A stretch of DNA of 21,121 nt from a virus. The notes under the pieces are model-generated. The model saw only the letters and a program-made list of their open reading frames with translations, ran no database searches and had not been told where the DNA came from. The translations under genes and the position numbers were made by a program. Shown here piece by piece: positions 3,837 through 18,920 of this stretch. The stretch lies in IMG/VR virus record IMGVR_UViG_3300025695_001214, positions 1 to 21,121 of that record; one strand, 5' to 3'. Numbering within the stretch: the stretch's first letter is position 1; each line of letters begins with the position of its first letter.

Positions 3837-6800
3837 ATGGTCGACCAATTAATCAAGAATACATTTGAAAACACATATAGAGACGATTACAGCGACAGCG
3901 CTGGTTTTCATCGTGTTCTCTTTAATAACGGCCGTGCAGTTCAAGCGCGTGAGTTAACACAGCTACAAACTATTATTCAATCTGAGATTACTCGCTTTGG
4001 CAATAACATCTTCAAAGAAGGCGCAGCGGTAAATCCTGGCGGTATTAGCGTTAACCCAGTTGAATTTGTTAAACTTAATACAGCATCAAATACATTACCA
4101 TCAGATACTTCGACTATTATCGGTACAGAATTCACAGGCGCAACTTCTGGAATCAAAGCGACAATCGTGGATGTTAAAGTTGCTGTTGGTTCAGATCCAG
4201 CAACAATATACGTGAAGTATAACGATGGTCTTTCTAGCGGAGCTTCAATTAAGTTTGCTGCAGCAGAAGATATTACAAACGGTTCTGTCACACTTACGGT
4301 ACAAACCACAAATACAACACTGAATCCAGCTACTGGTCGTGGTCTTTCTGGCAACGTTGCAGGTGGGGATTTTTACGCAACAGGTCGTTTTGTATACGCT
4401 CCAAAACAAACATCAATCATTTCAAAATACACAAGTTTGTTAACAGATGATCTTGGTTTTAAGATTGTTGAAGATATTGTTACGGCAAATGATGATGTAA
4501 CTCTTTATGATAACTCTGGTGCGCTTCCAAACACTTCTTCGCCTGGCGCTGACAGATATAGAATTAGTCTTACTCTTGATATTAGGAGCAATGTTGATTC
4601 AGACGAAAACTTTGTTTATATTGCCAAAATCAGAAATGGTATTATCGTATCTGACGTTAAAGCGGAATCAGAAGATAACTACAATAAGCTCACAGACGTT
4701 CTTGCATTAAGAACAAAAGAAGAGTCTGGCAATTATATCGTTACACCATACACGTTATCTTTCGACGACGATTCTGATACAACTAAACTTGATATTCACG
4801 TATCTCCAGGCACAGTATACGTTAATGGATATAGAGCAAATAAAGATTTTAACACGAATATTATTGTAACAAAGCCCAGAACAACAGAAACAGTAAACAA
4901 CGAAGTTGCTGCATTTAGCATTGGCAACTACATTGTTATTGACGGGAATAAAGGTCTTCCAAACGTAAACGAATTCGAACTTATGAATTTAAGATCGGCT
5001 ACCACTCACGGCGGATCAACGATTGGTACAGCAAGAGTCCGGGCGGTTGAAGAAAATGGTGACGGTAACTATAGGCTTTATCTTTTCCAACTGTCAATGA
5101 ATTCCGGTCAAAACTTCAGGGACACAAGAAGCATTGGGACTTCAACTACTAACTATTCAAATTTGGTTCTTGAAAACTCTCAGGCAGTTCTTAAAGATGC
5201 AAGTAATAGCTCACTTCTAGTAAGTCTTCCAACATCTAGACCTTCAGTATTATCTGATATTTCACTTGCAACTCAACGTAGATTTACAACATCAACAAAC
5301 GGTTCAGGCCAAGCAACACTTACACTTTCAGCCTCAGGCGAAACATTTGCAAATACAAATGACTGGGTTCTTGCACTAGCAGACAGTGATATTATTTCTG
5401 GCGCAACAATCACCGGAGCTGGTACTACAACGGCTTCTCTTTCAGGACTTCCAGCATCTGAAGCGAATCTTGAAGTTATCACTTATGTTAATAAAGCAGC
5501 TGCAACAGTTAGATCAAAAAGCCTTGAAACAGGCGCTAATACAATTACATCATTCGATTCTGATGGAAATGGACTTATCTATGCAAATCTATCAAAAGCT
5601 GATATCTATTCCTTTGACGGAATTACATTGTCGGATTCTTCTGGCAGATCGCTTGTAAGTAAGTTTACTATCGATAACGGTCAAAGAGATAACTTCTATG
5701 ATCTAGGCCGTATTATTTTGAAACCTGGACAATCACTTCCAACCGATGATGTTGTTGTTCAATATCAATATTTTGATCACGGTGTTTCAGGCGACTTCTT
5801 TGCGGTTAACTCATATACAGGCGAAGTTGACTATGAAGATATTCCTTCACACACCCTAGCCGATGGAACAACAGTTTCTCTTAGAGACGTTCTTGATTTC
5901 AGATCGGTTGTTAACTCCTCACAAACATTTGGTGCTGGAGCAGTTCTTCACGAACTTCCGCAAACGAACGATACCATCCAAGCTGACGCTACATACTATC
6001 TTGGAACAAGAAATAAAGTTATTATTACAAATAATAATGAAATCAAGTTTATTTCAGGTAAGCCTGCTATTTCACCAAAATATCCAGAAACCCCTGAAAA
6101 CTCGCTTGAGCTTTATAGAGTTACATTAAACCCATATGTTCTTTCCCCATCGGATTTAACCGTTGAAAAGATTGACCATAGACATTATACTATGTCAGAT
6201 ATTGGTCGTCTTGAGGATCGTATCGATAAGCTTGAAGAATTAACTTCTCTTAGCTTACTCGAACTCGATACAAGCGCATTGAGTGTATTGGATTCAGCTG
6301 GTCTTGACAGAACAAAATCAGGTTTCTTTGTGGATAACTTTGCGGATCACGCATTCACTGATGTTACATCGTCGGAACACAGAGCTGCTCTTGATCCGGT
6401 TAACAAAGCATTAAGACCGACCTCAAGTGAAGATGCTATTACTCTTCAATATGACTCCGCAACATCAACAAATACTATTCTTAAAGGTGACAACGTATAT
6501 CTAAACTATACACATAGAACGATATATGACCAATCTTCCGTAACAGGTACGGAAAACGTAAATCCATTTATATTAATGGATTGGCTTGGAAATATTACAA
6601 TGTCGCCATCAAGCGATAGTTGGATCGAAAAACGGTGGACTGCAGATAGAGTTATTAGCGGTGGGACAAGGTTAAACACTAGCTCAGCAAATCTCTGGAA
6701 CTCAGCATCATTTAACTGGGCAGGAACACCGGTTGATCAACTTCAAGTTGGTTCCACATCAAGTTCCATTACTTTAGCTTCAAGTACTGTTGCTGGTAGA

Positions 6801-8969
6801 AATACTTCTTCATCATCGCAAAATGGACAGACTCGAACCACGACGACTTTTGCAAATTCTACAACTACTACTACAACCGGATCAAATCGCGTCGTTTCGA
6901 GCGAAACGGTAAGAACTGTTGTAGGCGACCGCGTGGTGGATGTTCTTGTTATTCCATTCATGCGCTCAAGAAAAGTATATTTTAAAGGCGAAGGATTCAG
7001 ACCTAACACAAGATTGTTCCCGTTTTTTGATGATGTTGCCGTTGACGATTGGGTAAAATCAGAATCATTTGTTCATATTGCATCTGATCCAGTTGACTTC
7101 GGTAATAGTCTAAACGGGACCGTTGGACATCCAGATGGGGCATCGAGCCTTGTAGCTGATGGATCCGGTCGAATTGAAGGTTCGTTCTTTATTCCATCAA
7201 CTGCAGGTTTAAGATTTAGAACTGGTACAAGACCGTTTACATTATCTGATGTTACGTCTGGAGTAAGAGCGAACGGGACTTCATTCGGTAAAACAACGTT
7301 TACTTCAAGAGGTACTATTGAAGTTAGACAAAGAGACGTTGTTTCAACACGAGTTCTTACGGTCCAAAGTTTTACTAATACGAGAACATCATCCTCTAGT
7401 CGGGTAATCGCACAGAATACTGAAGCGCGCGGTGGTGGACCAGATCCATTAGCCCAGTCTTTCCTTGTCGAAGAACCAACTGGATATTTTGTAACAAAGT
7501 TTGATTTCTATTTTAAAACAAAAGCAGCTTCAGAAGCAAATCCTGTATGGATCCAACTTCGAACTGTAGAGAATGGTATTCCAACTGGTAATATTTTACC
7601 TGGATCAACTAAATTTGTTTATCCTTCTGAGATTACAGTTTCTGATGATGCAAGTGCTGCTACTACCTTTGAGTTTAACGAGCCTGTTTATTTAGAGCCA
7701 GGTAAGGAATATGCTGTTGTTATGCTTGCAAACACCACAGATTACCTAGTGTATATTTCTAGAGTTGGCGACTTTATTCTAGGAACAACAGATGCTAAAG
7801 TAACTAGACAGCCATTCTTGGGGTCACTCTTCAAATCGCAAAACGCATCTACTTGGACTCCGTCACAGTGGGAAGACCTAACATTTAAAATGTATGGTGC
7901 ACAGTTTACTGCAACAACAGGCACAGCAAAACTCAACAACGTAGCAGTTCCTTCTGAACTACTTCCAGCCGATCCATTCAGTGTTGATTCTGCAGATGCG
8001 ACAATTACAGTTAATCAAGGATCTCACGGTCTTACGGTTGGTGATGATGTTGTAATTTCAGGGGCAACTACATTCGGCGGCATTTCTGCAGGAAGTATTA
8101 ACGGCACTAGAACAATTACGGCTCTTGATGCAAATGGCTACACATTTGAAGCTGACTCAGCATCAACATCCGCTGATATTGGTGGGGGAAGTGCAGTTCT
8201 AGCAGATAAAAACATTCCGATGGATGTTATGATTCCAAATATCACAACTCTCTTATTAGACGAGACTAATATTTCTGCAACAGGTGAGTTTACAACGGGT
8301 CAATCTCTTGCTGGGATAGAAACCGCTTATCAGAAAGAAAGCGCTGTTGATATTCCGATCAATAGAGAGATTGTATTCTCAGCACCAAAGTTGATTGCTA
8401 ATGCGTCAAATGAAACAAACAATATGGCAGGTGCAAAGAGCTTAACGCTTAATATTACAATGTCAACGAATAATGACTTCGTATCTCCTGTAATTGATAT
8501 GCAGCGCGCAATCGCAATTGCTATCTCAAATAGAATTGACAAACAATCTGCGTCCCCTGCCAGTGGATTTAACGTTCCACTTAACTATGTCGCTGAAACA
8601 ACAGCAACAGGGGGCACACACGCCTCTAAGCATATCACAAAAGCTATTACACTCGCGGATGATGCTGTTGGTTTGAAAGTTCTAGTATCAGCAAACAGAC
8701 CATCGGTTGCAAGCTTTGACGTTTATTACAGAGTGTCAAATGGCACAACGTTGCTTACGGATACCGACTGGGCCCTAGCTTCAATTGAAAATAATATGCC
8801 TTCAGATGAAAATCCAGAAGTATTCAGATCATACGAATACCTTATCGGCGGGCAAGGTGGATCACTCCCAGCATTTAATCAGTTCCAAATCAAGGTTGTG
8901 TTTAAGTCAACAAGTAGCGCTAAAGTTCCAGTCATTCGTGATCTAAGAGCTATTGCGATGGGCGTATAA
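3837..8969 (+). CDS. Giant DUF4815-type virion structural protein (1,710 aa)
   Basis: This is the largest gene in the window. Residues 24-65 contain FHRVLFNNGRAVQARELTQL and then RFGNNIFKEG, the hallmark N-terminus of DUF4815-type structural proteins of marine T4-like phages. Other landmarks are RDVLDFRSVV near 682, a short charged helical stretch (RLEDRIDKLEEL) near 790, a Ser/Thr-rich linker around 980-1020, then VIPFMRSRKVYFKGEGFRPN near 1035, and GGGPDPLAQSFLVEEPTGYF near 1198-1217. An inserted beta domain, with GSHGLTVGDDVVISG, lies at about 1378-1456. The last 200 residues form a beta-rich module ending IRDLRAIAMGV. It follows gp8, where T4 carries gp9 and gp10, so it is probably a baseplate-periphery or fibre-attachment protein, exposed on the virion. 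The exact role is unknown. The stop overlaps the next start by one base. Confidence 0.85.
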   Translation: MVDQLIKNTFENTYRDDYSDSAGFHRVLFNNGRAVQARELTQLQTIIQSEITRFGNNIFKEGAAVNPGGISVNPVEFVKLNTASNTLPSDTSTIIGTEFTGATSGIKATIVDVKVAVGSDPATIYVKYNDGLSSGASIKFAAAEDITNGSVTLTVQTTNTTLNPATGRGLSGNVAGGDFYATGRFVYAPKQTSIISKYTSLLTDDLGFKIVEDIVTANDDVTLYDNSGALPNTSSPGADRYRISLTLDIRSNVDSDENFVYIAKIRNGIIVSDVKAESEDNYNKLTDVLALRTKEESGNYIVTPYTLSFDDDSDTTKLDIHVSPGTVYVNGYRANKDFNTNIIVTKPRTTETVNNEVAAFSIGNYIVIDGNKGLPNVNEFELMNLRSATTHGGSTIGTARVRAVEENGDGNYRLYLFQLSMNSGQNFRDTRSIGTSTTNYSNLVLENSQAVLKDASNSSLLVSLPTSRPSVLSDISLATQRRFTTSTNGSGQATLTLSASGETFANTNDWVLALADSDIISGATITGAGTTTASLSGLPASEANLEVITYVNKAAATVRSKSLETGANTITSFDSDGNGLIYANLSKADIYSFDGITLSDSSGRSLVSKFTIDNGQRDNFYDLGRIILKPGQSLPTDDVVVQYQYFDHGVSGDFFAVNSYTGEVDYEDIPSHTLADGTTVSLRDVLDFRSVVNSSQTFGAGAVLHELPQTNDTIQADATYYLGTRNKVIITNNNEIKFISGKPAISPKYPETPENSLELYRVTLNPYVLSPSDLTVEKIDHRHYTMSDIGRLEDRIDKLEELTSLSLLELDTSALSVLDSAGLDRTKSGFFVDNFADHAFTDVTSSEHRAALDPVNKALRPTSSEDAITLQYDSATSTNTILKGDNVYLNYTHRTIYDQSSVTGTENVNPFILMDWLGNITMSPSSDSWIEKRWTADRVISGGTRLNTSSANLWNSASFNWAGTPVDQLQVGSTSSSITLASSTVAGRNTSSSSQNGQTRTTTTFANSTTTTTTGSNRVVSSETVRTVVGDRVVDVLVIPFMRSRKVYFKGEGFRPNTRLFPFFDDVAVDDWVKSESFVHIASDPVDFGNSLNGTVGHPDGASSLVADGSGRIEGSFFIPSTAGLRFRTGTRPFTLSDVTSGVRANGTSFGKTTFTSRGTIEVRQRDVVSTRVLTVQSFTNTRTSSSSRVIAQNTEARGGGPDPLAQSFLVEEPTGYFVTKFDFYFKTKAASEANPVWIQLRTVENGIPTGNILPGSTKFVYPSEITVSDDASAATTFEFNEPVYLEPGKEYAVVMLANTTDYLVYISRVGDFILGTTDAKVTRQPFLGSLFKSQNASTWTPSQWEDLTFKMYGAQFTATTGTAKLNNVAVPSELLPADPFSVDSADATITVNQGSHGLTVGDDVVISGATTFGGISAGSINGTRTITALDANGYTFEADSASTSADIGGGSAVLADKNIPMDVMIPNITTLLLDETNISATGEFTTGQSLAGIETAYQKESAVDIPINREIVFSAPKLIANASNETNNMAGAKSLTLNITMSTNNDFVSPVIDMQRAIAIAISNRIDKQSASPASGFNVPLNYVAETTATGGTHASKHITKAITLADDAVGLKVLVSANRPSVASFDVYYRVSNGTTLLTDTDWALASIENNMPSDENPEVFRSYEYLIGGQGGSLPAFNQFQIKVVFKSTSSAKVPVIRDLRAIAMGV

Positions 8970-9172
8970 TGAGATTAGTTAAAGCAGATAACGGCCCCGG
9001 TATGGCAAGAGATTTAAATACCGGGGCCATAATCAATATAAATAGAAGTGAACTTGAACAAGCCCGTGAAGCAAAGCGACTGAGAAAAGCTAAAGATCAA
9101 GAGTTTGAGCAAATGAAAACGGATATTGATTCTATCAAACAAATGTTAACTCAGATTGTAGAGAAACTATAA
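8969..9172 (+). CDS. Small conserved-looking coiled-coil protein (67 aa)
   Basis: A 67-aa protein coupled on both sides by TAATG overlaps (with the DUF4815 gene upstream and the fibre gene downstream). Residues 1-24 read as a compact glycine-containing head (NGPGMARDLNTGAI). Residues 28-67 are highly charged with regularly spaced hydrophobic residues (LEQAREAKRLRKAKDQEFEQ, then M, I, I, M, L, I, V, L), typical of a coiled coil. No enzyme motif is seen. It may be an assembly factor or a minor baseplate or fibre part. The gene body contains a perfect GC-rich inverted repeat (8993-9028) and a late-promoter octamer (9037-9044), which may explain part of its codon choice: it uses CCC, GGG and GCC codons that are uncommon nearby. 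Confidence 0.75.
   Translation: MRLVKADNGPGMARDLNTGAIININRSELEQAREAKRLRKAKDQEFEQMKTDIDSIKQMLTQIVEKL
8993..9028 (+). other. Perfect 11-bp GC-rich inverted repeat (RNA hairpin) inside a gene
   Basis: GGCCCCGGTAT at 8993-9003 is the exact reverse complement of ATACCGGGGCC at 9018-9028, with a 14-base loop. It is the most GC-rich short stretch noticed in this AT-rich window. No run of T follows, so it is not a standard terminator; RNA processing, pausing or termination just ahead of the octamer at 9037 are possible roles. Confidence 0.75.
9037..9044 (+). promoter_or_regulatory. Possible late promoter octamer TATAAATA upstream of fibre gene
   Basis: An exact TATAAATA nine bases downstream of the GC-rich hairpin, inside the 67-aa gene and 127 bases before the fibre gene at 9172. 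The placement suits a late promoter for the fibre genes, with the hairpin separating upstream transcripts from new ones. It lies in coding sequence, so chance is not excluded. Confidence 0.45.
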
Positions 9173-9738
9173 TGGCAAAAGTAATTGTAAATTTATCAGA
9201 CACTATGGACAGTTTTGTCACTAAGACAAATTTAATTTCTACATATGTTGGCGATCTAACGACTCTGAATACAACTCAAGATTCTGACCTTGTTGGAGCA
9301 ATCAATGAGGTATATGCGCTAGTTGATAATGACCTAGATTTTAGAAGTAAGATTAGTGTAACAGATGCTGGTGGAGATGGATCATTATCCTATAGTTCTG
9401 CTACTGGCGTTATTACATACACTGGACCAAGCGCAGCTGAGGTTAGAGCACATATTAGTGTAACAGATGCTGGTGGTGATGGATCACTAAGCTATAACTC
9501 AACTTCAGGTGTTATCACATACACTGGTCCAAGTGCAGCTGAGGTTAGAGCACATTTAAGTGCAGGTACAGCAATTACATTTTCATCAGGTCAAATTAGC
9601 GTTACTGCAGGAAGTATTAATACTACACAATTAACTGATGATGCCGTATCAAGAGCTAAATTAAAAGACGAAGTTGGTTTGGTGATATATAACAGTGCAG
9701 GCACAGCATTAAAAACATTATACGGCGCAGGAAGTTAA
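9172..9738 (+). CDS. Tail-fibre-like protein with two tandem repeats (188 aa)
   Basis: The N-terminus (VIVNLSDTMDSFVTKTN and LVGAINEVYALVDN) is typical of phage fibre or baseplate-attached proteins. Residues 61-94 and 95-128 are two copies of a 34-residue unit that begins ISVTDAGGDGSLSY and ends GPSAAEVRAH; a third copy is aborted after LSAGTA. The unit is a recurrent shaft repeat in marine phage fibres. The C-terminus (SINTTQLTDDAVSRAKLKDE) resembles short fibre-tail modules. At 188 aa it is much shorter than usual fibre proteins, so it may be a compact fibre, a connector, or an adhesin part working with the next gene. The start overlaps the previous stop by one base (TAATG). Confidence 0.75.
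   Translation: MAKVIVNLSDTMDSFVTKTNLISTYVGDLTTLNTTQDSDLVGAINEVYALVDNDLDFRSKISVTDAGGDGSLSYSSATGVITYTGPSAAEVRAHISVTDAGGDGSLSYNSTSGVITYTGPSAAEVRAHLSAGTAITFSSGQISVTAGSINTTQLTDDAVSRAKLKDEVGLVIYNSAGTALKTLYGAGS
9352..9555 (+). repeat. Two tandem 102-bp in-frame repeats in the fibre gene
   Basis: Copies at 9352-9453 and 9454-9555 differ at about 14 of 102 positions by hand comparison. The last 21 bases of each copy are identical, and the opening bases are identical too. Many differences are silent or conservative, which suggests selection for the repeated protein fold after duplication. Confidence 0.9.
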
Positions 9739-9740
9739 TC

Positions 9741-10670
9741 ATGACAGTTAGAACCCCCTTAAAATTGAACGGCAGTAATCTTCAGGAAATGACTTCCACT
9801 GAAATTAATGCAATTAAAACAGAAGCCATTCGTCTTTATGGGGCAAATCCATATGTATATTTGTCAGTTGTTGGAAGTGGCGGTAATCTTGGAACTATTA
9901 ATGATACCAGATTGATTGCTGGCGCAGGAACAACAGATGTAACAAACTACGATACAGAGGCAGAAACCCCAAACGTTTCTACTACAACTGTAGGATATGC
10001 TAGGATTACTGAATCAATTGACACGAGTTTGGCTAGTTGGACTGATGCTTCTTATTCGTATCCACTATACTATGATGCCGGTAACCTAAGAGAAATGACC
10101 GCTGCAGACTTTGCAGATACATTTATTATTCCCGCTATTGATACCCTTACTTCAGGATCAACTGGAACGGCACAAGCTGGAACATACCATATTTCAACAA
10201 GCTCTTCGGTTTCTGGATCAACATTGGTTTCCGCCACTCCGGTATTCGTGGATACAAGAGCAAATGCCGGTGCTTATACTGCTGGCGGTATTCCTGAGAC
10301 ACTAGATCAACCAACGACTATTACAAATTACTATTTGCATAGAATCAATTCTGCTAGTGCTGCTGGCCATGAACTTCCGGTATGTTATACTAAGTCTGGA
10401 ACAAATCTTTATCAGACGCCCTCGGCTACATTCCAATCAGCTCTTACAACAATGATTAACTACTATGCGGCTGAAGTTACTGGAACTCGAATCAGGTATA
10501 GCCTTAATGGAACTGGTACTAACAGAGGTTCTGCTATGACTGATACGAAGCTAAATAGCTCTACGTACCTACAGCGCTTTGTAAATACCGACGATTATAG
10601 AACACAAGAAGTTCCGAGTGGATCAGCAACAACAATCTCAACAAACTACTTAAGAATTTACCAAGTTTAA
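9741..10670 (+). CDS. Putative virion structural protein (309 aa)
   Basis: A 309-aa protein rich in Thr, Ser, Tyr and Gly and almost without charged clusters, with beta-rich low-complexity texture typical of phage surface proteins. The N-terminus (MTVRTPLKLNGSNLQEMTST) is followed by an internal echo of the same phrase, YPLYYDAGNLREMTAADF at about residues 107-124 (compare LKLNGSNLQEMTSTEI at 7-22), which indicates two related modules. I do not recognise catalytic motifs. It starts two bases after the stop of the repeat fibre gene and is preceded by an AGGA motif, so the two are very likely co-translated. The best guess is a fibre or decoration protein; I recall similar proteins in marine phages, but the function is not established. 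Confidence 0.7.
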   Translation: MTVRTPLKLNGSNLQEMTSTEINAIKTEAIRLYGANPYVYLSVVGSGGNLGTINDTRLIAGAGTTDVTNYDTEAETPNVSTTTVGYARITESIDTSLASWTDASYSYPLYYDAGNLREMTAADFADTFIIPAIDTLTSGSTGTAQAGTYHISTSSSVSGSTLVSATPVFVDTRANAGAYTAGGIPETLDQPTTITNYYLHRINSASAAGHELPVCYTKSGTNLYQTPSATFQSALTTMINYYAAEVTGTRIRYSLNGTGTNRGSAMTDTKLNSSTYLQRFVNTDDYRTQEVPSGSATTISTNYLRIYQV

Positions 10671-10694: not shown

Positions 10695-11309
10695 ATGGCT
10701 ATTTTTAGCGGTAAGGTTGTATCGGCAACCTTTGCGGATTTTCCGACTAATACATTAATTGAAGTTTTATATCAAGAAGAAGATGGTGTTACAGCATATG
10801 TTCTTGAAGTAGATTTTACACAAAGTGATTTTAACGATCTTTTACAAGATATTACATTAGAAGAAATTGAAGCTGCTACACAAACAATTGTTAAGGCTGA
10901 AGCTAATATTTTTAATAGTGCAGTTAATGAAGAAGTTGAGCGTAGATGGGCTTTAGAATCCGAAAAGATTAAAGCAGCATACAATCAGTTGGATGAATAT
11001 GCTGAAGATCAAAAGCTTAAAAAATTGACTGAAGTTGAACAAGAAAGAGCAGATGCACTTAAATCTCTTCAGGAAAAGTATAATTTAGTTTCTTCATCGG
11101 AAAACATTACTCCAAAAGATCTGCTAAATAAAATAGAACATTGGAATAATGACACAGACTTTTTGTTTAATACAAAAATTGCTATTCTTGAAGATCCTAT
11201 TATCTCAAAGTCAAAAGATAAAGAACTTAAGTTGTCAATCAGAAAAGCTAAATCAGTGTTTGAGCTATTAAGCATCTATAGTGCGAGAAAATTAGACCAA
11301 AAGGACTAA
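10695..11309 (+). CDS. Charged coiled-coil protein, function unknown (204 aa)
   Basis: Residues 1-50 form a beta-like head (MAIFSGKVVSATFADFPTNT, LIEVLYQEED). Residues 52-130 are a long, highly charged alpha-helical and probably coiled-coil stretch (LEEIEAATQTIVKAEANIFN, EEVERRWALESEKIKAAYNQ). The C-terminal third is helical and lysine-rich, ending SARKLDQKD. No enzyme motif is visible. It directly precedes the glycosyltransferase at 11312, with two bases between them, and follows the fibre genes after a 24-base gap, so it could belong to either group. A fibre-assembly chaperone or minor structural protein are reasonable ideas, without direct support. The region is already as AT-rich by eye as the enzyme island. 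Confidence 0.68.
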   Translation: MAIFSGKVVSATFADFPTNTLIEVLYQEEDGVTAYVLEVDFTQSDFNDLLQDITLEEIEAATQTIVKAEANIFNSAVNEEVERRWALESEKIKAAYNQLDEYAEDQKLKKLTEVEQERADALKSLQEKYNLVSSSENITPKDLLNKIEHWNNDTDFLFNTKIAILEDPIISKSKDKELKLSIRKAKSVFELLSIYSARKLDQKD

Positions 11310-11311
11310 TA

Positions 11312-11950
11312 ATGTATAATGTGATATGTGTCAAGTTTGGCACAAAATATAATAGTCAATACGTTAATAAATTATATCATGATATTAAAGCCGTAGCAAA
11401 ATCGGACTTTAAGTTTTATTGCTATACTGATGATAAATCTGGTATAGACAAAGAAATCAATATCATAGACCCATTACCTAAACCAACCTTAAAGGGCGTT
11501 TGGAACAAACTCAGATTGTTTGATCCAGACATGCCTTTTAAGGGTAAAACTTATTTCTTTGATCTTGATGTTAAGATTTGCAAAGATCCTTTTATTCACA
11601 CAGAAGAAAAGGACTGGGAAAAACTTACTCTTATTCATTCTCACTGGAAAGTCGGAAAGTTATATAACAGACTTTCAAACTATGATGTAAAAGTAAATAG
11701 CTCTATTATGTCTTGGGATACTAATAGCGAAGATATTAATAATTACTGGAGCCATTTTAACACCGGCTTCAGGGACTACTATTTACGGAAATATGTGGGT
11801 ATAGATAGATTCATAGTACATGAAGATTTTGATTATTTTACATTTGATAATCAATATGTACAATCAAAAAAATATCAAAAAGAAATTGATTATGATCCAT
11901 GTGTAATCACATTTGAGGAAATTGACGTTGAACTCAGAGATCTTATATAG
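11312..11950 (+). CDS. GT-A-type glycosyltransferase, DxD motif DLD (212 aa)
   Basis: Probably transfers a sugar from a nucleotide sugar to an unknown acceptor. The N-terminus (YNVICVKFGTKYNSQYVNKL, then FKFYCYTDD) is the first strand-helix unit of a small GT-A glycosyltransferase. GVWNKLRLF at 62-70 is followed by KTYFFDLDVKICKDPF, where D84-x-D86 would bind the metal and nucleotide. Residues 105-190 are rich in Trp and Tyr and end with a VHEDFDY segment. It is the first enzyme of the island, two bases after the coiled-coil gene, with an AAAGGAC ribosome-binding site. Its NKLRLF and DxD layout is shared with the glycosyltransferase at 13408, so the two are probably paralogous. The donor, acceptor and linkage cannot be read from the sequence. 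Confidence 0.8.
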   Translation: MYNVICVKFGTKYNSQYVNKLYHDIKAVAKSDFKFYCYTDDKSGIDKEINIIDPLPKPTLKGVWNKLRLFDPDMPFKGKTYFFDLDVKICKDPFIHTEEKDWEKLTLIHSHWKVGKLYNRLSNYDVKVNSSIMSWDTNSEDINNYWSHFNTGFRDYYLRKYVGIDRFIVHEDFDYFTFDNQYVQSKKYQKEIDYDPCVITFEEIDVELRDLI

Positions 11951-12551
11951 AGCACTAAAGCTTACTGAAGAAGTTTATGATGAATCGATGTATGGCATTG
12001 ACGATCTATATCGAATTAAAGATATAGGCCATTCGGTCGATATAAACCACTGGAAAAGCAAAGAGTGGTTAGCAAAAGAATTTCACAAACATTACAATCA
12101 TGACGCCGGACATTTTTATGTTGCTGGCGGGTGGTATGGTATGGCAGCATATCAACTAAGACAAATGTGGCCTGATATTGATCAGATGGCTATTACTTCA
12201 GCCGATATGGATCCGATGTGTGAAGAATATGCATGGAAACTATTTTATGATAGTAACATTGATTTTATAACTGAAGAAGTTGATACTGAAATAGACCTGT
12301 CGAAATACTCTGCTATCATTAACACGAGTTGTGAGCACATGGAGCAAGAGGATATTCTTTCTATCATTAAGAATAAACCTAAGGATACCTGGGTAGTATT
12401 TCAGAGCAATAATTTTGTTGATCTTACAGCACATATTAATTGTTGGCCAACAGTAGATTTATTTGCAGAAAGTCTTAAGTTAGATTATGTTGCATATGCA
12501 GAATCTTTAGACTTAGGTGACTTTAAAAGACATATGGTGATTGGTAAATGA
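11928..12551 (+). CDS. Methyltransferase-like protein (SAM-dependent, class I type)
   Basis: No ATG lies near the expected start. TTG codons at 11913, 11922 and 11928 are in frame; 11928 is chosen because GAGG at 11915-11918 is spaced well before it. This start overlaps the upstream glycosyltransferase by 23 bases (TTG at 11913 would give 38). Counting from 11913, HFYVAGGWYGMAAYQL at 67-82 fits a glycine-rich nucleotide-binding loop after a beta strand, ITSADMDP at 94-101 provides an acidic end of the second strand, and YSAIINTSCEHM at 132-143 resembles motif IV. These suggest a class I SAM methyltransferase, though the loop is not the classic GxGxG. The substrate may be a sugar or protein side chain handled by the neighbouring enzymes. 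The stop overlaps the next ATG (ATGA). Confidence 0.65.
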   Translation: MNSEILYRALKLTEEVYDESMYGIDDLYRIKDIGHSVDINHWKSKEWLAKEFHKHYNHDAGHFYVAGGWYGMAAYQLRQMWPDIDQMAITSADMDPMCEEYAWKLFYDSNIDFITEEVDTEIDLSKYSAIINTSCEHMEQEDILSIIKNKPKDTWVVFQSNNFVDLTAHINCWPTVDLFAESLKLDYVAYAESLDLGDFKRHMVIGK

Positions 12552-13420
12552 AAAAGGTAGTTTATAGTGTATTCATTGATATTCCAGAAGATAAGTTAGA
12601 TAATCCTGGCTGGTTTGAAAATGGCGTTCAAATAAAAACTGATAAGAGTCTTCAGACAAAAAATGCCCTTAAAGATAACAAATGGAAAATAATTAAAAAG
12701 CAGGAAGCCTATGCTAAGTCTATTAAGGCTGATTATTTGTGCATCGATTGTCCAGACTTATATACTGATTGGGCTAATGAGTTTAGAGAAACATATCCTC
12801 AAATTTCAGAATACGACATAATTAATTTCTACAAACATTGGTATATGAAGGTATTTTCAGAAAAATATGATGCAGTTTGTTATCTTGACTTTGATGTAAT
12901 CCCGAACACCGATGAAGATATTTTTGAAGCTCATGACATCAATAACAGGTTTGGTTGCGCTAACTCAAATGACAGAGCGATGTGGGGTAAAACAGTTTCT
13001 CCTAGTGAATACAATACTTGTATTCGTAACCCTGCCACGAAATACTGGAACGCTCATGCAATGTTGATGGCTGATGGTCATGACCCTGAGAATGATGTAT
13101 TTAATACGGGCATTATGGTAGCTTCATCTAAGATTATTAAAGAGCTAGGTTATTTCAATGATATGAAAGAAAACCTGAGCTTGATGACAGAACTAAAAGA
13201 AGAAGAAGATTCGATGTATCCTCACAACATTCAACGTGTATTTGGATATGATAATGAAACTCTGTTTTCATATTTGGTTCATTCAAAGTCTATCGATATT
13301 CAATATCTCAACGGCCCTTGGCATTATATCATCGATGAAAAATTTGATAGTATGAAGCGTGTGGATCCTAATGCTAAGATGTATCACTTCATTAATAAAA
13401 AAATGGAATGGGTTTTGTGA
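12548..13420 (+). CDS. GT8-like glycosyltransferase, DxD motif DFD (290 aa)
   Basis: Residues 108-120 read DAVCYLDFDVIPN: the strand ends with D114-x-D116, the metal-binding motif of GT-A enzymes. VFNTGIMVAS at 184-193, DNETLFSYLV at 235-244 and MYHFIN at 278-283, with H280 as a likely metal ligand, complete the pattern of a GT8-like retaining glycosyltransferase. The N-terminus (KKVVYSVFIDIPEDKL) is a normal first strand. It is the longest of the three glycosyltransferases here and the most complete. ATGA overlap with the methyltransferase stop indicates translational coupling. Donor sugar and acceptor are unknown; the position in a fibre region makes a virion glycosylation role possible. 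Confidence 0.82.
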   Translation: MKKVVYSVFIDIPEDKLDNPGWFENGVQIKTDKSLQTKNALKDNKWKIIKKQEAYAKSIKADYLCIDCPDLYTDWANEFRETYPQISEYDIINFYKHWYMKVFSEKYDAVCYLDFDVIPNTDEDIFEAHDINNRFGCANSNDRAMWGKTVSPSEYNTCIRNPATKYWNAHAMLMADGHDPENDVFNTGIMVASSKIIKELGYFNDMKENLSLMTELKEEEDSMYPHNIQRVFGYDNETLFSYLVHSKSIDIQYLNGPWHYIIDEKFDSMKRVDPNAKMYHFINKKMEWVL

Positions 13421-14091
13421 AAGTATTTTGTGTTCGAATAGGAAACAAATATGGTCCAGAGTATGAAGATTATATTAACTCGAAGTTAAGCAATCATGAA
13501 GTGATATGGATCCGTGAACAGTTTCATCCACACGTTCCTTTGCAATGGAATAAACTTCAAGTGTTCAATATGGACATTGATGAACCTGTAATTGTTATGG
13601 ACATCGATAAGCTGCTTATTAACGACTATGAAGAAGTTATAAACTATCCATGCGAGAAGAATGAATTTGTTTCTATTCCTTACTGGTGGAATTTTAATGG
13701 AACTCCGTTTAAGATGAGCGGTGGGTTTTATAAGTTTTGGCCTTCAAGAACAAAACACATTTATCAAAAGTTTATGAGTGATATACCTTATTACACAAAC
13801 TACTATATCAAAGCTGGATTAACAAATGGTCCAGTTAATGGTGAGTTTATGTTCGTCCAAGATAGCCTATACGGAATGGATTTAAAACTTATGCCAGATG
13901 CTTGGTTTACTCGCTGGTTAAGTTCTGACGATAAAGAAATGTGCGCTAAACTAACTGATAGATATTATGAGGTTACTGGTAATGAATACATCTATAACGA
14001 ACAATTTCATCCTGATCTAAAAATGGTCCACTTTACTAATAGTATGAACAAGCCTCACGAATGGAAAGACTATGAGACTCATATCAGATGA
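13408..14091 (+). CDS. GT-A-type glycosyltransferase, DxD motif DID (227 aa)
   Basis: The N-terminus VKVFCVRIGNKYGPEYEDYI parallels that of the glycosyltransferase at 11312. WNKLQVFNMD at 47-56 precedes PVIVMDIDKLLINDY, where D65-x-D67 is the DxD motif. MSGGFYKFW at 103-111, NGEFMFVQDSLYG at 144-156 and MVHFTN at 206-211 fit the acceptor loop and terminal His region of small GT-A enzymes. ATG at 13408 overlaps the previous gene by 13 bases; GTG at 13417 would instead give a tight GTGA overlap with its stop, and either start is possible. With the other two glycosyltransferases it may build a short oligosaccharide stepwise, but this is inferred from neighbourhood only. Confidence 0.8.
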   Translation: MGFVKVFCVRIGNKYGPEYEDYINSKLSNHEVIWIREQFHPHVPLQWNKLQVFNMDIDEPVIVMDIDKLLINDYEEVINYPCEKNEFVSIPYWWNFNGTPFKMSGGFYKFWPSRTKHIYQKFMSDIPYYTNYYIKAGLTNGPVNGEFMFVQDSLYGMDLKLMPDAWFTRWLSSDDKEMCAKLTDRYYEVTGNEYIYNEQFHPDLKMVHFTNSMNKPHEWKDYETHIR

Positions 14092-14863
14092 ACAATTTTA
14101 TAACTATAATGAGTTATATAATAAAAATGAGTTAAGTCTATGGCTTGACATTTCTACACACTGTAATGCTAAATGCCCTCAATGCCATAGAACGGATGCT
14201 AATGGCTTACAAAAAGTCGATTGGTTACCTGTTATTCAATGGTCAACTGAAGAGTTTAAAAAAGCTTTTACTCCTAAAAACTTAAGCCATATTGACAGGA
14301 TTGATATTTGTGGTACATGGGGAGATCCCATGATGAATAAAGATATATTTGAAATTGTAAAATATATCATGAATAATTCTAAGTGTAAAATATTAATTAA
14401 TACCAATGGTAGCATCAGAAATGCTGATTGGTGGTGGAATTTTGGATTACTAGGCAGAGAAAGAATCACTGTTATGTGGGCAATTGATGGCATTACGCAG
14501 GATCAACATTCGCTATATCGACAGGACACTAACTTACAAACAGTTTTAGATAATATGGAAACATTTACTGCTGCCGGCGGCATATCTCAAGTGTTTACTG
14601 TTGTGTTTAAACACAATGAAAAGGATATTTACAATCTAGCTTCACTAGTAAAAGAAAAAGGCGCTCAGGATATTTTTTATGTGCCTTCGAATAGATTTAA
14701 AAGAAATTCTACTAAGTTTGAATTTATTGATAAAGTAGGTGAACTTAAATTTTTAGAAAAATCTTCTTTAGACGAATATAATGCACCAGGTCTTTTTTGG
14801 AAAACTCTATTTCTAGAAGAAGAAGATAAAATGGAAGTGATACGTAATGCAACACCGAAATAA
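14072..14863 (+). CDS. Radical SAM core protein (263 aa), SPASM part encoded separately downstream
   Basis: Radical SAM enzymes use a 4Fe-4S cluster to cleave S-adenosylmethionine and start radical chemistry. LDISTHCNAKCPQCHRT at 25-41 holds the cluster motif C31-x3-C35-x2-C38. The usual GGEP SAM-binding loop is replaced by DICGTWGDPMMN at 78-89, with G84-D85-P86 in the expected place. LINTNGS at 108-114 and MWAIDG at 135-140 are the later strands. The protein ends after 263 residues at EVIRNATPK, where typical relatives continue into a SPASM domain; that part appears in the +1 frame in the next gene. It overlaps the glycosyltransferase upstream by 20 bases. The substrate is unknown; a peptide, protein or sugar substrate is possible. 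Confidence 0.85.
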   Translation: MRLISDEQFYNYNELYNKNELSLWLDISTHCNAKCPQCHRTDANGLQKVDWLPVIQWSTEEFKKAFTPKNLSHIDRIDICGTWGDPMMNKDIFEIVKYIMNNSKCKILINTNGSIRNADWWWNFGLLGRERITVMWAIDGITQDQHSLYRQDTNLQTVLDNMETFTAAGGISQVFTVVFKHNEKDIYNLASLVKEKGAQDIFYVPSNRFKRNSTKFEFIDKVGELKFLEKSSLDEYNAPGLFWKTLFLEEEDKMEVIRNATPK

Positions 14864-15242
14864 ATGTAATATTAAATGTGAATGGATGCAAACGAAAAGA
14901 GTATTAGTAAATCCTGATGGACAAGTTTTACCATGTTGTTTTTTTGCTAATGTTATTTACATGTATGATAGAATGGGCGCGCCTGAAGAATGGACTCCAA
15001 AGGCTGAGTATGGCATTTCAGATCAGTTAATGGATGTTCCAAGAGTTGCGCACGAAACAAGCCAAGAATCAATTCTTATGGATTATTATAAAAATCGTGA
15101 AGAGTATAATATATTTGAAAATGATCTAGAGGATATTTTAAATAGTGATTGGTTTAAAAAAACATTACCTGAATCATGGGAAGATGAAAGTAAACTAGCT
15201 AGACAGTGCAAAACATATTGCCAGGTAAAAGATGAAGAATAA
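14847..15242 (+). CDS. SPASM-like cysteine domain protein (131 aa), probable partner or split-off half
   Basis: This short protein carries six cysteines laid out like a SPASM auxiliary-cluster domain: C7-x3-C11, then VLVNPDGQVLPCCFFANV with C30 and C31, and C121-x3-C125 near the end. A Gly-Gln-Val-Leu-Pro-Cys-Cys segment is typical of the domain that follows the radical SAM core in one polypeptide. Here it has its own ATG at 14847, with GGAAG about nine bases upstream, and overlaps the core gene by 17 bases in the +1 frame. It could be a real separate subunit, the product of a programmed +1 frameshift, or the result of a frameshift mutation or sequencing error. It overlaps the next gene by 11 bases. 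Confidence 0.72.
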   Translation: MQHRNKCNIKCEWMQTKRVLVNPDGQVLPCCFFANVIYMYDRMGAPEEWTPKAEYGISDQLMDVPRVAHETSQESILMDYYKNREEYNIFENDLEDILNSDWFKKTLPESWEDESKLARQCKTYCQVKDEE

Positions 15243-16395
15243 CTTTTGCATTATTCCATGGATCTCAATTACGTCGGATAATGCTGGATTAGTAAGACCT
15301 TGCTGTAAGTTTGCTGAAAAGGATGTTCAAGGAGAATATCAAACACCTAGCCTTAAAGATTATTCATATGAGGACATATGGAATGGTCCAGAAATGCAGG
15401 CAATTCGGCAAGCATTTTTAGATGATAAAAAGATTCCAGAGTGTTCCTCATGCTGGAAAGAAGAAGCGGCTGGATTGACTAGCTATAGAAACCAATATAA
15501 CCACACGTTTCTTCGACAAATTGATCCAAAAGACTATTCTACAACTTATGCTGAACCACCTAGAGTCGTAGATTTAAAATTAAGCAATGTGTGTAATTTT
15601 AAATGCCGTATGTGCGATTTTTCATATAGCAGTCTAATTCTAAAAGAAGATAAAGCATTTAGAGGTTATGATATACCAGATGAATCATATTACATTTCTG
15701 ATAAAATATTAAATACCGAAAATGAAGATTACTTCTTTGAAAAAATAGTTCCGAATCTTATTCAGATCGAGTTTACTGGTGGTGAACCATTTGTAAGTCC
15801 CGAAGCTAGGAAGCTAATTGATATATTATCACAATCAGAATATGCGAAAAATATTGCAATCAATATAACAACTAATGGTAGTAGAGTAAACACACTAATA
15901 TTAAACCAACTAGAGAAATTTAAATTTGTTAGAATAGGATTAAGTGTTGATGACATTGGTTCTAGAGCGGAATACCAAAGGAAAGGTACTGTTTGGGAAA
16001 CTGTAAGTCATAACTGCAAACTCTTCAATGATAACAAAAAGTTTTATGTAAATCTACATCCAACGATAAACAACTATAGCATATGGAACTTCGATAAAAC
16101 TTTGGAATGGGCAAAAGAAAACAACATAAAGGTTGTTACAAATATTTTGCATGGCCCTGAACGATTGTGTATAAAAAATCTTAGTGCGTATAGTAAGTCT
16201 AAGGTTTATGAAAAACATAAAGATAATAAATCTATGGTTAACATTCTTTCGTATATGATGCAAGACGGTGAGGATCTTACTGAAGATTTTATTCGAGAAA
16301 CCGAGTGGATAGATAGTATTAGAAATGAAAGTTTTAAGGATGTTTTTCCTGATTGGAGTGAGATAATTTATGGCTCTTTGCAAAGCCCCAGTTAA
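15232..16395 (+). CDS. Radical SAM protein with N-terminal twitch domain (387 aa)
   Basis: The N-terminal 80 residues form a twitch-type auxiliary-cluster domain: FCIIPWISIT with C6, GLVRPCCKFA with C24 and C25, and ECSSCWKEE with C71 and C74. The radical SAM core follows: LSNVCNFKCRMCDF has C121-x3-C125-x2-C128, FTGGEPF at 181-187 is the SAM-binding loop, and NITTNGS lies about 30 residues later. This order, twitch first and core second, is that of the family named 'twitch domain-containing radical SAM protein'. Substrates of these phage enzymes are not known to me. The C-terminal 100 residues are helical and charged. The start overlaps the SPASM-like gene by 11 bases, and the end overlaps the next paralogue by 26 bases. 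Confidence 0.86.
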   Translation: MKNNFCIIPWISITSDNAGLVRPCCKFAEKDVQGEYQTPSLKDYSYEDIWNGPEMQAIRQAFLDDKKIPECSSCWKEEAAGLTSYRNQYNHTFLRQIDPKDYSTTYAEPPRVVDLKLSNVCNFKCRMCDFSYSSLILKEDKAFRGYDIPDESYYISDKILNTENEDYFFEKIVPNLIQIEFTGGEPFVSPEARKLIDILSQSEYAKNIAINITTNGSRVNTLILNQLEKFKFVRIGLSVDDIGSRAEYQRKGTVWETVSHNCKLFNDNKKFYVNLHPTINNYSIWNFDKTLEWAKENNIKVVTNILHGPERLCIKNLSAYSKSKVYEKHKDNKSMVNILSYMMQDGEDLTEDFIRETEWIDSIRNESFKDVFPDWSEIIYGSLQSPS

Positions 16396-17371
16396 CAATA
16401 TGTACTTTACTGTCCATGGAACAGTAGCGCCTTGCTGGTTAACGGTTGGAGCTATTGATCGTTGGAGTCCTACTCATTCTATAAGCGATATTTGGTTTGG
16501 TGAAAAATATCAGAAAATTAGAGATAATATTTCTAATGATATTTTTAAAGGTAAATGTGGCGAGTGTAAAAAGGATGTTGATAACGGGGTTTGGCCATTA
16601 GCTAAAGCCTATGATCAATTTACTGTAAAAGAATATCCTAGTCTTATGGAGCTGGAGTTAAGTAATCAATGTAATCTCGAATGTGTAATGTGTTCTGGAA
16701 CTTTAAGTTCAGGTATTCGTAAAAATCGTGATAAGCTTCCGCCACTGCCGCAGATTTATACAGATGAATTCAGACAACAGCTAAGAGAGTTTATTCCTCA
16801 TCTCGAAGAGCTACGATTTAATGGTGGCGAACCATTTGCGCAAAAGATTGTTTTAGATATTTGTGAAGACGTTGCAGAACTAAACCCGGGGCTTAAAGTC
16901 AACATTGCTACAAATGGTACGGTATACAATAAGCGTGTTCAGAAGATCCTGGATATATGCAATATTCATATTAATATTTCTATCGATAGTCTATTACATG
17001 ACCGCTATAGTGAAATCAGAATTAATGGCGACCTAGCTGTCCTTATGAAGAACTTTGAAATCTTTAATAAATATTGTAAAGATGGAAATCGAGACTTATC
17101 TATCATGGTTAACCCAATGAGGCAAAATTGGGATGAGATGGTAGAATTTGTTAAATGGACTAACAAACATCATGTGAAGTTATGGTATAATACTATTCGT
17201 TATCCGGCTGATTGCGCTATATGGAATTTGCCGACTGAAAAGTTAAAGGAGATTCATACTAGTCTTCAGGCAGAACTTGATAGTATACCACTTTCGAGCT
17301 ATAACTATGATAAAGCTGATCATTTGATCAATAGACAGATAGCCAATTGGTTATTAGAAAGTTATGAGTAG
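16370..17371 (+). CDS. Radical SAM protein with reduced N-terminal twitch domain (333 aa)
   Basis: A second twitch-first radical SAM enzyme. N-terminal cysteines are C4, C22 and the pair C63-x2-C66 (KCGECKK). Where its neighbours have CC, this one has Cys-Trp (VAPCWLT), so one cluster ligand of the usual set is absent or replaced. The core has LSNQCNLECVMCSG with C101-x3-C105-x2-C108, NGGEPF at 151-156, and IATNGT about 25 residues on. It is 54 residues shorter than the upstream paralogue, mainly at the C-terminus. The ATG at 16370 lies 26 bases inside the upstream gene. The three twitch-type proteins diverge strongly outside the motifs, which argues for separate substrates or steps rather than a recent triplication. 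Confidence 0.84.
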   Translation: MALCKAPVNNMYFTVHGTVAPCWLTVGAIDRWSPTHSISDIWFGEKYQKIRDNISNDIFKGKCGECKKDVDNGVWPLAKAYDQFTVKEYPSLMELELSNQCNLECVMCSGTLSSGIRKNRDKLPPLPQIYTDEFRQQLREFIPHLEELRFNGGEPFAQKIVLDICEDVAELNPGLKVNIATNGTVYNKRVQKILDICNIHINISIDSLLHDRYSEIRINGDLAVLMKNFEIFNKYCKDGNRDLSIMVNPMRQNWDEMVEFVKWTNKHHVKLWYNTIRYPADCAIWNLPTEKLKEIHTSLQAELDSIPLSSYNYDKADHLINRQIANWLLESYE

Positions 17372-17436
17372 TATACCTCTCCTCCCCCAGAAGTGATACT
17401 TCTATTATACACAGATTTTTAGGATTGTAAACAAGA
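17372..17436 (+). other. 65-base gap with pyrimidine tract and small hairpin
   Basis: The only sizeable gap inside the enzyme island. It contains a C-rich pyrimidine tract at 17376-17388 (CCTCTCCTCCCCC), a 6-bp inverted repeat at 17389-17403 (AGAAGT, loop GAT, ACTTCT), and TTTTT at 17416-17420. The hairpin is short and the T run is 12 bases away, so a terminator is doubtful. The pyrimidine tract resembles the 3' end of 16S rRNA and could mask a purine-rich ribosome-binding site. Confidence 0.4.
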
Positions 17437-18540
17437 ATGTTATGTCAAGCGCCATTTTTAGGAATTACTGTAGATCCATCCGGATTATTGACGTTATGTT
17501 GTGCTACAAATAATAGAAATTATTTTGAAAGTCATATAGATGATGTAGATGATTTACAAGAATTCTTTTTGAGTGACAAATATACTCATGTCAGAAATAT
17601 CATGGAATCCGAAGGTATAAAAAAGCTTCCTCAGTGTTTGCATTGCTGGAAAGCTATAGATGGATATTGGACAGAAATTAATAATTATAATGAGAAACAA
17701 ATCTCTGATACACTTCAAATTTCGTATCTAGAATTAACCACAAGCAACACGTGTAATCAAACGTGTGTTACATGTTCTAGTTATTTTAGCTCTAAGTGGA
17801 GAAAGATAGAATCTAAATTTAACAGGCATATTCACCCATCATTTCAATTATCAGATTCGGCTATTGATAAAGTTATTAAAGTCTTACCTGGATTGAAATA
17901 TCTTCAAATTAAAGGCGGGGAACCGTTTGCTGATAAAAACAATCTTAAAATTTTAAAAGCGCTATCTAAAGTAAATCCTGAATGCGAAGTTATTATAACG
18001 AGTAATTTTCAACGCGTACCAAATGAATGGTATGAAGTGTTAAAGCTTCTTCCAAATATAAAAGCTGGAGCTAGTATTGATGGTATAGGTAAAACTTATG
18101 ACTGGATACGAGGCGGTTCATTTAAAGATACTATACAAAACTTAGAGAATTTCTATAAAAAAACTGGAAATACAGTTGTTATAAATGTATGCGTTTCTTT
18201 GTATAATATATTTCATTTATCTGATATATTAGATTACTTTAAAAATAAAGAATATGTTTCAGTTACGATATTCAATAATATCATGGAATACCCCAGAGAA
18301 CAATCAATACAATCTTTGGATCCATTAACTTTGAAAAAAATAACATTTTTTGAACTTCCATTTTGGCATAAGGAACTTGAAAATATAAACAAAGTAGAAT
18401 CTTTTAGCGATGATATTAGATTTAATCTTATGAGTAAGTTTATATCACACACAGAAACCATGAATTCTATTAGAGGGTTTAATATTTTTGATATTCAACC
18501 TAAATTAGCCGAACTTTGCAATATAAAAATGTATAAATAA
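17437..18540 (+). CDS. Radical SAM protein with N-terminal twitch domain (367 aa)
   Basis: The third twitch-first radical SAM enzyme and the last gene of the island. N-terminal cysteines are C3 (MLCQAPF), C21 and C22 (LLTLCCAT), and C67-x2-C70 (QCLHCWK), a full set like that of the paralogue at 15232. The core shows TSNTCNQTCVTCSS with C106-x3-C110-x2-C113, and IKGGEPFADKNN with the SAM-binding loop at 160-164. GASIDGIGKTYDWIRGG follows near residue 205. It is set apart from the other island genes by a 65-base gap, and it is very AT-rich: the line 18181-18240 has 11 G or C in 60 by hand count. Its final codons contain a late-promoter octamer. Confidence 0.86.
   Translation: MLCQAPFLGITVDPSGLLTLCCATNNRNYFESHIDDVDDLQEFFLSDKYTHVRNIMESEGIKKLPQCLHCWKAIDGYWTEINNYNEKQISDTLQISYLELTTSNTCNQTCVTCSSYFSSKWRKIESKFNRHIHPSFQLSDSAIDKVIKVLPGLKYLQIKGGEPFADKNNLKILKALSKVNPECEVIITSNFQRVPNEWYEVLKLLPNIKAGASIDGIGKTYDWIRGGSFKDTIQNLENFYKKTGNTVVINVCVSLYNIFHLSDILDYFKNKEYVSVTIFNNIMEYPREQSIQSLDPLTLKKITFFELPFWHKELENINKVESFSDDIRFNLMSKFISHTETMNSIRGFNIFDIQPKLAELCNIKMYK
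18532..18539 (+). promoter_or_regulatory. T4-type late promoter octamer TATAAATA at the island end
   Basis: An exact TATAAATA forms the last codons of the third twitch-type gene (Tyr-Lys-stop) and lies 24 bases before the ATG at 18564. The spacing to the next gene is the same as at 2240. The predicted transcript start is about 18545, ahead of an AGAGGAAA ribosome-binding site. It would restart late expression for the virion genes after the enzyme island. Confidence 0.68.
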
Positions 18541-18563: not shown

Positions 18564-18920
18564 ATGGCTCAATACGAAGACTTAATCATTGATCAGGGTG
18601 CTGATGTAGCAATTGAGATAGAATTGCTCGAAAAGGATGGATCCGTAAAGGATCTGACTGGCTTTTCAGCATTTGCTAAAATGAAAAGGTCATATAATGC
18701 TGATAGTGATAATACTCAGGCTTTTACTACAACTATTAACGCAGAAACTCCAGAAGACGGTAAGCTTATTTTAGAATTGTCAAACACTGAAACGGATTCA
18801 TTAAAACCTGGAAGATGGTTATATGATGTTGAAATTTCATATCTTGATAGTGATTCCAACACCGTTATTGAAAGAGTTCTTGAGGGTAATATTCAAGTAA
18901 CTCCGTCAGTAACGAGGTAG
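18564..18920 (+). CDS. Small virion protein with beta-sandwich-like fold (118 aa)
   Basis: A 118-aa protein with the pattern of a small beta-sandwich domain found in phage fibre and baseplate proteins (BppU-like): LIIDQGADVAIEIELLEKDG, then VKDLTGFSAFAKMKR at 33-47, LKPGRWLYDVEISY at 80-93, and a terminal VLEGNIQVTPSVTR. The phrase 'DLTG..A.A.M+' and the ending 'G.I.VTPSVTR' are common in such proteins. It probably sits at the fibre or baseplate periphery. The gene has a strong AGAGGAAA ribosome-binding site and a late-promoter octamer just upstream, and is followed after two bases by the next virion gene. Confidence 0.75.
   Translation: MAQYEDLIIDQGADVAIEIELLEKDGSVKDLTGFSAFAKMKRSYNADSDNTQAFTTTINAETPEDGKLILELSNTETDSLKPGRWLYDVEISYLDSDSNTVIERVLEGNIQVTPSVTR

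Follow-up and report, generated by a model that had tools for sequence, protein, structure and literature searches.

Gene content of the locus

An island of nine genes for putative modifying enzymes lies in the fibre region of the IMG/VR virus record IMGVR_UViG_3300025695_001214, a 21,121-base stretch (the window) from a marine T4-like phage of bacteria that gave no match in a near-identity DNA search of the phage record collection. The nine open reading frames (ORFs) occupy positions 11312 to 18540, all on the + strand, and seven of their eight junctions are overlaps (−38, −4, −13, −20, −17, −11, and −26 nt, from GT1 through TW8), the sole gap being the 65 nt between TW8 and TW9. An earlier note, made from the letters of this stretch, had described nine consecutive same-strand genes joined by short overlaps, and had read them as three DxD glycosyltransferases, a methyltransferase-like protein, a radical S-adenosylmethionine (SAM) core, a SPASM-like protein, and three twitch-first radical-SAM proteins; both the arrangement and each of these readings were borne out by the analysis presented herein.

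The window runs from gp6 through a structural gene, a short piece resembling gp10, then gp8 and VrlC, to several fibre-type genes, followed by the island and by more structural genes, and all of the features located below are on the + strand. VrlC (3837–8969), a baseplate-region protein recognized by tblastn to the annotated VrlC of Pelagibacter phages Mosig and HTVC008M and by phrog_358, bounds the host recognition cluster on its upstream side. Next comes f12 (9172–9738), a short protein of fibre type that contains a repeated unit, has weak PHROG tail-fibre matches, and is syntenic in relatives. Beyond the island, its downstream border is asm (18564–18920), a structural gene matching phrog_1084 and phrog_3304 (“L-shaped tail fiber protein assembly”).

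Between f12 and the island are two genes that prove central to its interpretation. The first, f13 (9741–10670), which is upstream of GT1-MT-GT2 in all 27 related loci described below, is probably a fibre or baseplate-attached protein and the candidate substrate of the enzymes. The structure predicted from the window and IMG/VR loci is of high confidence (AF2 pLDDT 94.9), and since it has no fold match in PDB or BFVD, the structure itself confers no fibre identity. The protein is 27% Ser plus Thr and contains one Cys, with no Cys invariant in the family alignment. The adjacent cap14 (10695–11309), which ends 2 nt before GT1, has no family match in profile searches including Pfam, NCBIfam, and PHROG, and from its synteny it is a possible fibre chaperone. 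In relatives cap14 and GT1 usually overlap or are a few bases apart, and f13 and cap14 are jointly duplicated in loci L118–L124 and L161.

The first four island genes are predicted to encode enzymes of sugar transfer and methylation. GT1 (11312–11950) matches the glycosyltransferase family phrog_1962 (E 2.6e-6), which GT3 (13408–14091) matches weakly (0.004), and by profile comparison GT1 and GT3 are homologous (hhalign, 99%, E 5e-21). GT2 (12548–13420) has no Pfam match of its own, and it appears to be a GT8-like glycosyltransferase as judged from its family, of which 11 of 22 members match PF01501 (GT8; best 1.4e-6). Each of these three glycosyltransferase families has an invariant DxD pair (D84/D86 across 24 members for GT1, D114/D116 for GT2, and D65/D67 for GT3). 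By its predicted fold, MT (11913–12551) is a class I SAM-dependent methyltransferase: the AF2 model (pLDDT 93.5) has solved methyltransferases as its neighbours in a Foldseek search of the PDB (E 4e-8 to 5e-7), and its profile also matches 3dtn (2e-4). Searching the PDB with profiles of GT1, GT2, or f13 yielded nothing informative. In four related loci (L118, L119, L121, and L161) GT2 is roughly double this length, reaching 589 aa, and includes an additional unassigned region.

The earlier note was also right that the island holds neither nucleotide-sugar genes nor the small precursor-peptide gene that marks radical-SAM maturation of ribosomally synthesized and post-translationally modified peptides (RiPPs); its intergenic space never exceeds 65 nt, leaving no room for such a precursor. 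Hydropathy profiles of the nine island proteins revealed no strong membrane segment, and there is no amidinotransferase gene among the island ORFs of the window; an amidinotransferase-like ORF, recognized by eye only, is located elsewhere in the nearest relative (L289).

The radical-SAM genes and an apparently split enzyme

The remaining five genes represent two arrangements of radical-SAM protein. SAM5 (14072–14863) is a radical-SAM core (PF04055, 34 bits, above the cut-off of 29.5) with its CxxxCxxC motif at residues 31–38, while SPASM6 (14847–15242) has the auxiliary-cluster domain (PF13186, 30 bits, above the cut-off of 21.5; Cys 7, 11, 30, 31, 121, and 125). In TW7 (15232–16395), TW8 (16370–17371), and TW9 (17437–18540) a SPASM/twitch region precedes the core, the SPASM part of TW9 being under its cut-off. 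SAM5 and all three twitch-first proteins have CxxxCxxC and a PF04055 match above the cut-off (49 bits for TW8) and so belong to the radical SAM superfamily. By the curated cut-off (170 bits) of NCBIfam NF033640 (N_Twi_rSAM, twitch domain-containing radical SAM), TW7 (312 bits) and TW9 (190 bits) are members of that family and TW8 (144 bits) falls below it. No substrate assigned to this family was found. The radical-SAM profiles cross-match in the hidden Markov model maps, and the labels TW7, TW8, and TW9 in distant loci denote the best profile and not orthology.

The best reading of SAM5 and SPASM6 is that they represent a single two-subunit enzyme that is split between two genes. Locus L161 encodes a single 382-residue protein matching both the SAM5 profile (2e-76) and the SPASM6 profile (2e-26), and the two are also fused in L089/L090 and in L104. 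They are adjacent but separate in 40 loci, a count that is not de-replicated and includes many overlapping records of the same contigs. A frameshift or sequencing error is ruled out as the origin of the split because it is conserved across many levels of divergence. Locus L175 has an additional pair in the order SPASM′-SAM′.

Such genes in phages could be taken for auxiliary metabolic genes that boost the host through haem, molybdopterin, or general anaerobic metabolism, and indeed the window proteins match AhbD and MoaA models and the radical-SAM genes of Campylobacter phage CP220 were read as host metabolism (PMC2853527). The scores, however, are far from the curated cut-offs, at 46 bits against 500 for the AhbD haem b synthase model (TIGR04545) and 22–63 bits against 284 for the MoaA models, which rules out haem and molybdopterin genes as such, and the location and partners of the island genes are fibre and sugar genes. 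We therefore regard a metabolic function as very improbable. It is SAM5 that weakly matches the AhbD model. A total of 261 viral “ahbD” metabolic genes have been reported and were termed speculative by their authors (PMC9301287), and in our own estimation some of these may be misassigned radical-SAM genes of the present sort.

A fixed core and a variable tail in related phages

Related phages were found in which this gene set recurs at the corresponding fibre locus, as the earlier note had suggested should be looked for. Searching with MT and GT2 yielded 27 non-redundant loci that extend 2.5 kb or more upstream, and f13 and cap14 are present in every one of them, the complete set of GT1, MT, and GT2 in 26, and a radical-SAM gene in 13. 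Since the loci were found by means of MT and GT2, the figure of 27 out of 27 tells what accompanies those genes. The shared order is VrlC-sm11-f12-f13-cap14-GT1-MT-GT2, after which the loci differ: no further enzyme precedes asm in L137–L145, in which GT3 is absent; GT3 alone follows in L147–L153; and GT3-SAM5-SPASM6 is found in L129 and L135, extended by TW8 in L113, by TW7-TW8 in L132, and by TW7-TW9 in L133 and in the window. Hence a fixed core of GT1-MT-GT2 accompanies f13 and cap14, whereas the presence of GT3 and of the radical-SAM genes varies, an arrangement that is newly described here. The earlier note had held that scattering of these genes in relatives would count against a dedicated role; the core genes are not scattered, and the radical-SAM genes partly are, being located elsewhere in two relatives.

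The converse question, whether f13 predicts the enzymes, was addressed with a control set of loci collected by VrlC alone, 25 of which have at least 6 kb downstream. Enzymes are present in all six loci with f13 and in 5 of the 19 without it (Fisher p 0.0026), albeit in a small sample of loci that share ancestry. For cap14, a comparison made post hoc, the corresponding values are 10 of 13 and 1 of 12 (p 0.001).

That the island is not a chance assembly follows from the recurrence of the same genes in order in dozens of contigs and from the low ratios of nonsynonymous to synonymous substitution (dN/dS). In the one genome pair compared (the window and its nearest relative, L175), dN/dS is 0.01–0.22 for the island genes overall, with values of 0.01–0.08 for GT1, MT, GT3, SAM5, SPASM6, TW7, and TW8 and of about 0.2 for f13, cap14, GT2, and TW9, and the island genes are under purifying selection. 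Identity to L175 is 74% for GT2 and 99% for MT, and so GT2 has either been replaced or has diverged faster. The GC content is indeed lower in the island (0.29–0.36) than elsewhere (0.36–0.41), which the earlier note had taken as a sign of separate acquisition, but the difference arises at codon positions 1 and 2. At the third position the values are nearly equal (0.272 in the island and 0.257 outside) and relative synonymous codon usage is correlated (0.81), so that composition does not indicate a foreign origin, and that interpretation was rejected.

Tandem radical-SAM arrays elsewhere

A scan with TW7 matched at least 600 stretches of sequence. The 76 loci that were mapped mostly have four to nine radical-SAM-like genes each, usually in a row, and recurrent partners: a conserved, uncharacterized 366-residue protein in 63 of the 76, in most cases encoded immediately downstream; a carbamoyltransferase family, one member of which Pfam confirms, in 54; and SGNH-, aminotransferase-, epimerase-, and amidinotransferase-like families, mostly recognized by eye, one SGNH-type member matching DUF6071. 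Where gp6 was matched (30 contigs), the array always lies on its strand, 22–31 kb downstream. Two of the genes are fused (~850 aa) in several of the T4-like contigs with arrays (L009–L084, for example L040:3569-12591). Second radical-SAM clusters are also found off the fibre island of the same contigs (L287:8888-16840 and L288:5991-11763), with an SGNH-like gene in both and a carbamoyltransferase-like gene in L287. Sixteen loci are in prokaryote genome contigs, mostly Bdellovibrio-like and other metagenome-assembled genomes (MAGs), and some of these are probably misbinned phage. The Bdellovibrio-like MAG contigs L097, L103, and L107 are rich in twitch-first radical-SAM genes. A Pfam scan showed that the neighbours of bacterial twitch-first genes are mostly housekeeping genes.

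The partners of these arrays bear on a further explanation, in which the fibre polypeptide is itself the target of the radical-SAM proteins, through thioether or cyclophane formation or epimerization, much as in RiPP maturation and independently of sugars. SPASM/twitch radical-SAM proteins are typical peptide maturases, those of the island weakly match several maturase models, and since there is no separate precursor gene, a virion protein would be the substrate. Yet all of these matches are far under the curated cut-offs, f13 has one Cys and none that is invariant, and the partners elsewhere are sugar-type enzymes, all of which makes peptide modification an unlikely function.

A proposed pathway for decoration of the f13 fibre

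We propose, as a reading that we give about an even chance of being correct, that the island encodes a pathway by which a glycan is built and tailored on the f13 fibre. GT1 and GT2, and GT3 where present, would attach sugars drawn from the nucleotide-sugar pools of the host, MT would methylate the glycosylated product, and the split SAM5-SPASM6 enzyme together with TW7, TW8, and TW9 would catalyze further oxidative, epimerizing, or deoxygenating steps. The acceptor would be the f13 gene product, late in infection, and the glycan may alter receptor binding or shield the adhesin. A glycan pathway is favoured because sugar transfer and methylation are encoded at a fibre locus that has no carrier-lipid machinery, and because the radical-SAM genes have sugar-decorating partners, while the fibre is favoured over the host surface as the acceptor because the enzymes are tied to f13 and cap14. 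To our knowledge no radical-SAM tailoring of a virion has been known before. We tentatively offer a more specific picture, in which the virus assembles a methylated glycan on its tail fibre and remodels it with several radical-SAM enzymes, including a split one, the core of the gene set being fixed and the decorating genes exchangeable.

Several observations weigh against this proposal. In the contig of L147 (G060) the fibre island is GT1-MT-GT2-GT3 and a radical-SAM cluster is located ~45 kb away (SAM5-SPASM6-TW7-SAM5-SPASM6-TW8-TW9, then a carbamoyltransferase-like ORF, recognized by eye, and an SGNH-like gene), and the contig of L143 (G056) also has radical-SAM genes away from the fibre island. 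The co-occurrence may come partly from shared ancestry. Mantel distances tie f13 and cap14 to the glycosyltransferases beyond VrlC, but the backbone gene gp8 correlates with them too, so that this test is not decisive. In some relatives, and in phage Mosig, island and structural genes are on opposite strands. Moreover, for the pelagimyophage host recognition cluster the host O-chain is the published proposal for the target of its glycosyltransferases, and its GT8 enzymes are named lipopolysaccharide-type (PMC7029224).

The last two points speak for the main rival reading, in which the enzymes instead alter a host surface glycan, the O-chain or similar, during infection to block superinfection or re-adsorption of progeny; an adhesin and a modification of its receptor would be selected together and their genes could then be neighbours. 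One bacterial twitch-first locus with UDP-galactopyranose mutase, and some with ABC transporter neighbours, are also in its favour. However, the island is without a lipid-carrier glycosyltransferase, flippase, polymerase, or obvious membrane protein, and a strict tie to a single fibre gene is less expected if the host is the target. The contigs of ten relatives, which are fragments, gave no NTP_transferase family match, and four relatives have epimerase-type genes in their contigs. We consider host-surface modification a possibility to be taken seriously, albeit a doubtful one.

Comparison with known systems

An island of this kind is already known in outline, because the locus in the window is the post-VrlC host recognition cluster that has been reported for pelagimyophages as variable and as having glycosyltransferases and radical-SAM cassettes (PMC7029224). 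Both are T4-like, with fibres, glycosyltransferases, and radical-SAM genes directly after VrlC. The window stops, at 21 kb, within the fibre region, and the neck gene gp14 is the downstream limit of the cluster elsewhere. The passages found in that paper do not describe a fixed GT1-MT-GT2 core, a tie to one fibre gene, a split enzyme, or N-terminal twitch arrays, and searches of open papers, which do not extend to most subscription journals and preprints, turned up no account of any of these features. The novelty claimed in the earlier note for a phage system combining glycosyltransferases and radical-SAM enzymes was therefore half right, as the combination had been reported (PMC7029224; PMC2853527) and it is the constant core and its association with a single fibre gene that are new here.

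The Campylobacter phages CP220 and CPt10 (L092) similarly have five radical-SAM genes near two genes with nucleotide-diphospho-sugar transferase domains in an exchangeable module (PMC2853527), with a possible baseplate lysozyme within 10 kb. Unlike the window, that module includes an amidinotransferase, and its radical-SAM proteins best match the SAM5 profile and not the twitch-first ones. The cultured Pelagibacter phage Mosig EXVC030M (L205, MT647606) has homologues of f13 (QOI69061, 50% identity), cap14, and GT2 and genes annotated as MoaA-like and methyltransferase, but it is richer than the window, with an annotated sugar aminotransferase, carbamoyltransferase, epimerase, and nitroreductases, and its enzyme genes are mostly on the opposite strand. 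Apart from these genes, the window has a 64-residue ORF (2272–2466) whose match to phrog_677, the baseplate wedge-tail fibre connector family, is confined to the N-terminus of that family.

Our analysis suggests that these phages chemically decorate their own fibre or the surface of their host, and cultured Mosig makes the fibre-decoration reading testable. If that reading is true, phages would carry chemically complex adhesin coats made by radical chemistry, host range or shielding would be set by enzymes as well as by fibre sequence, and a function would be provided for a large set of viral radical-SAM genes.

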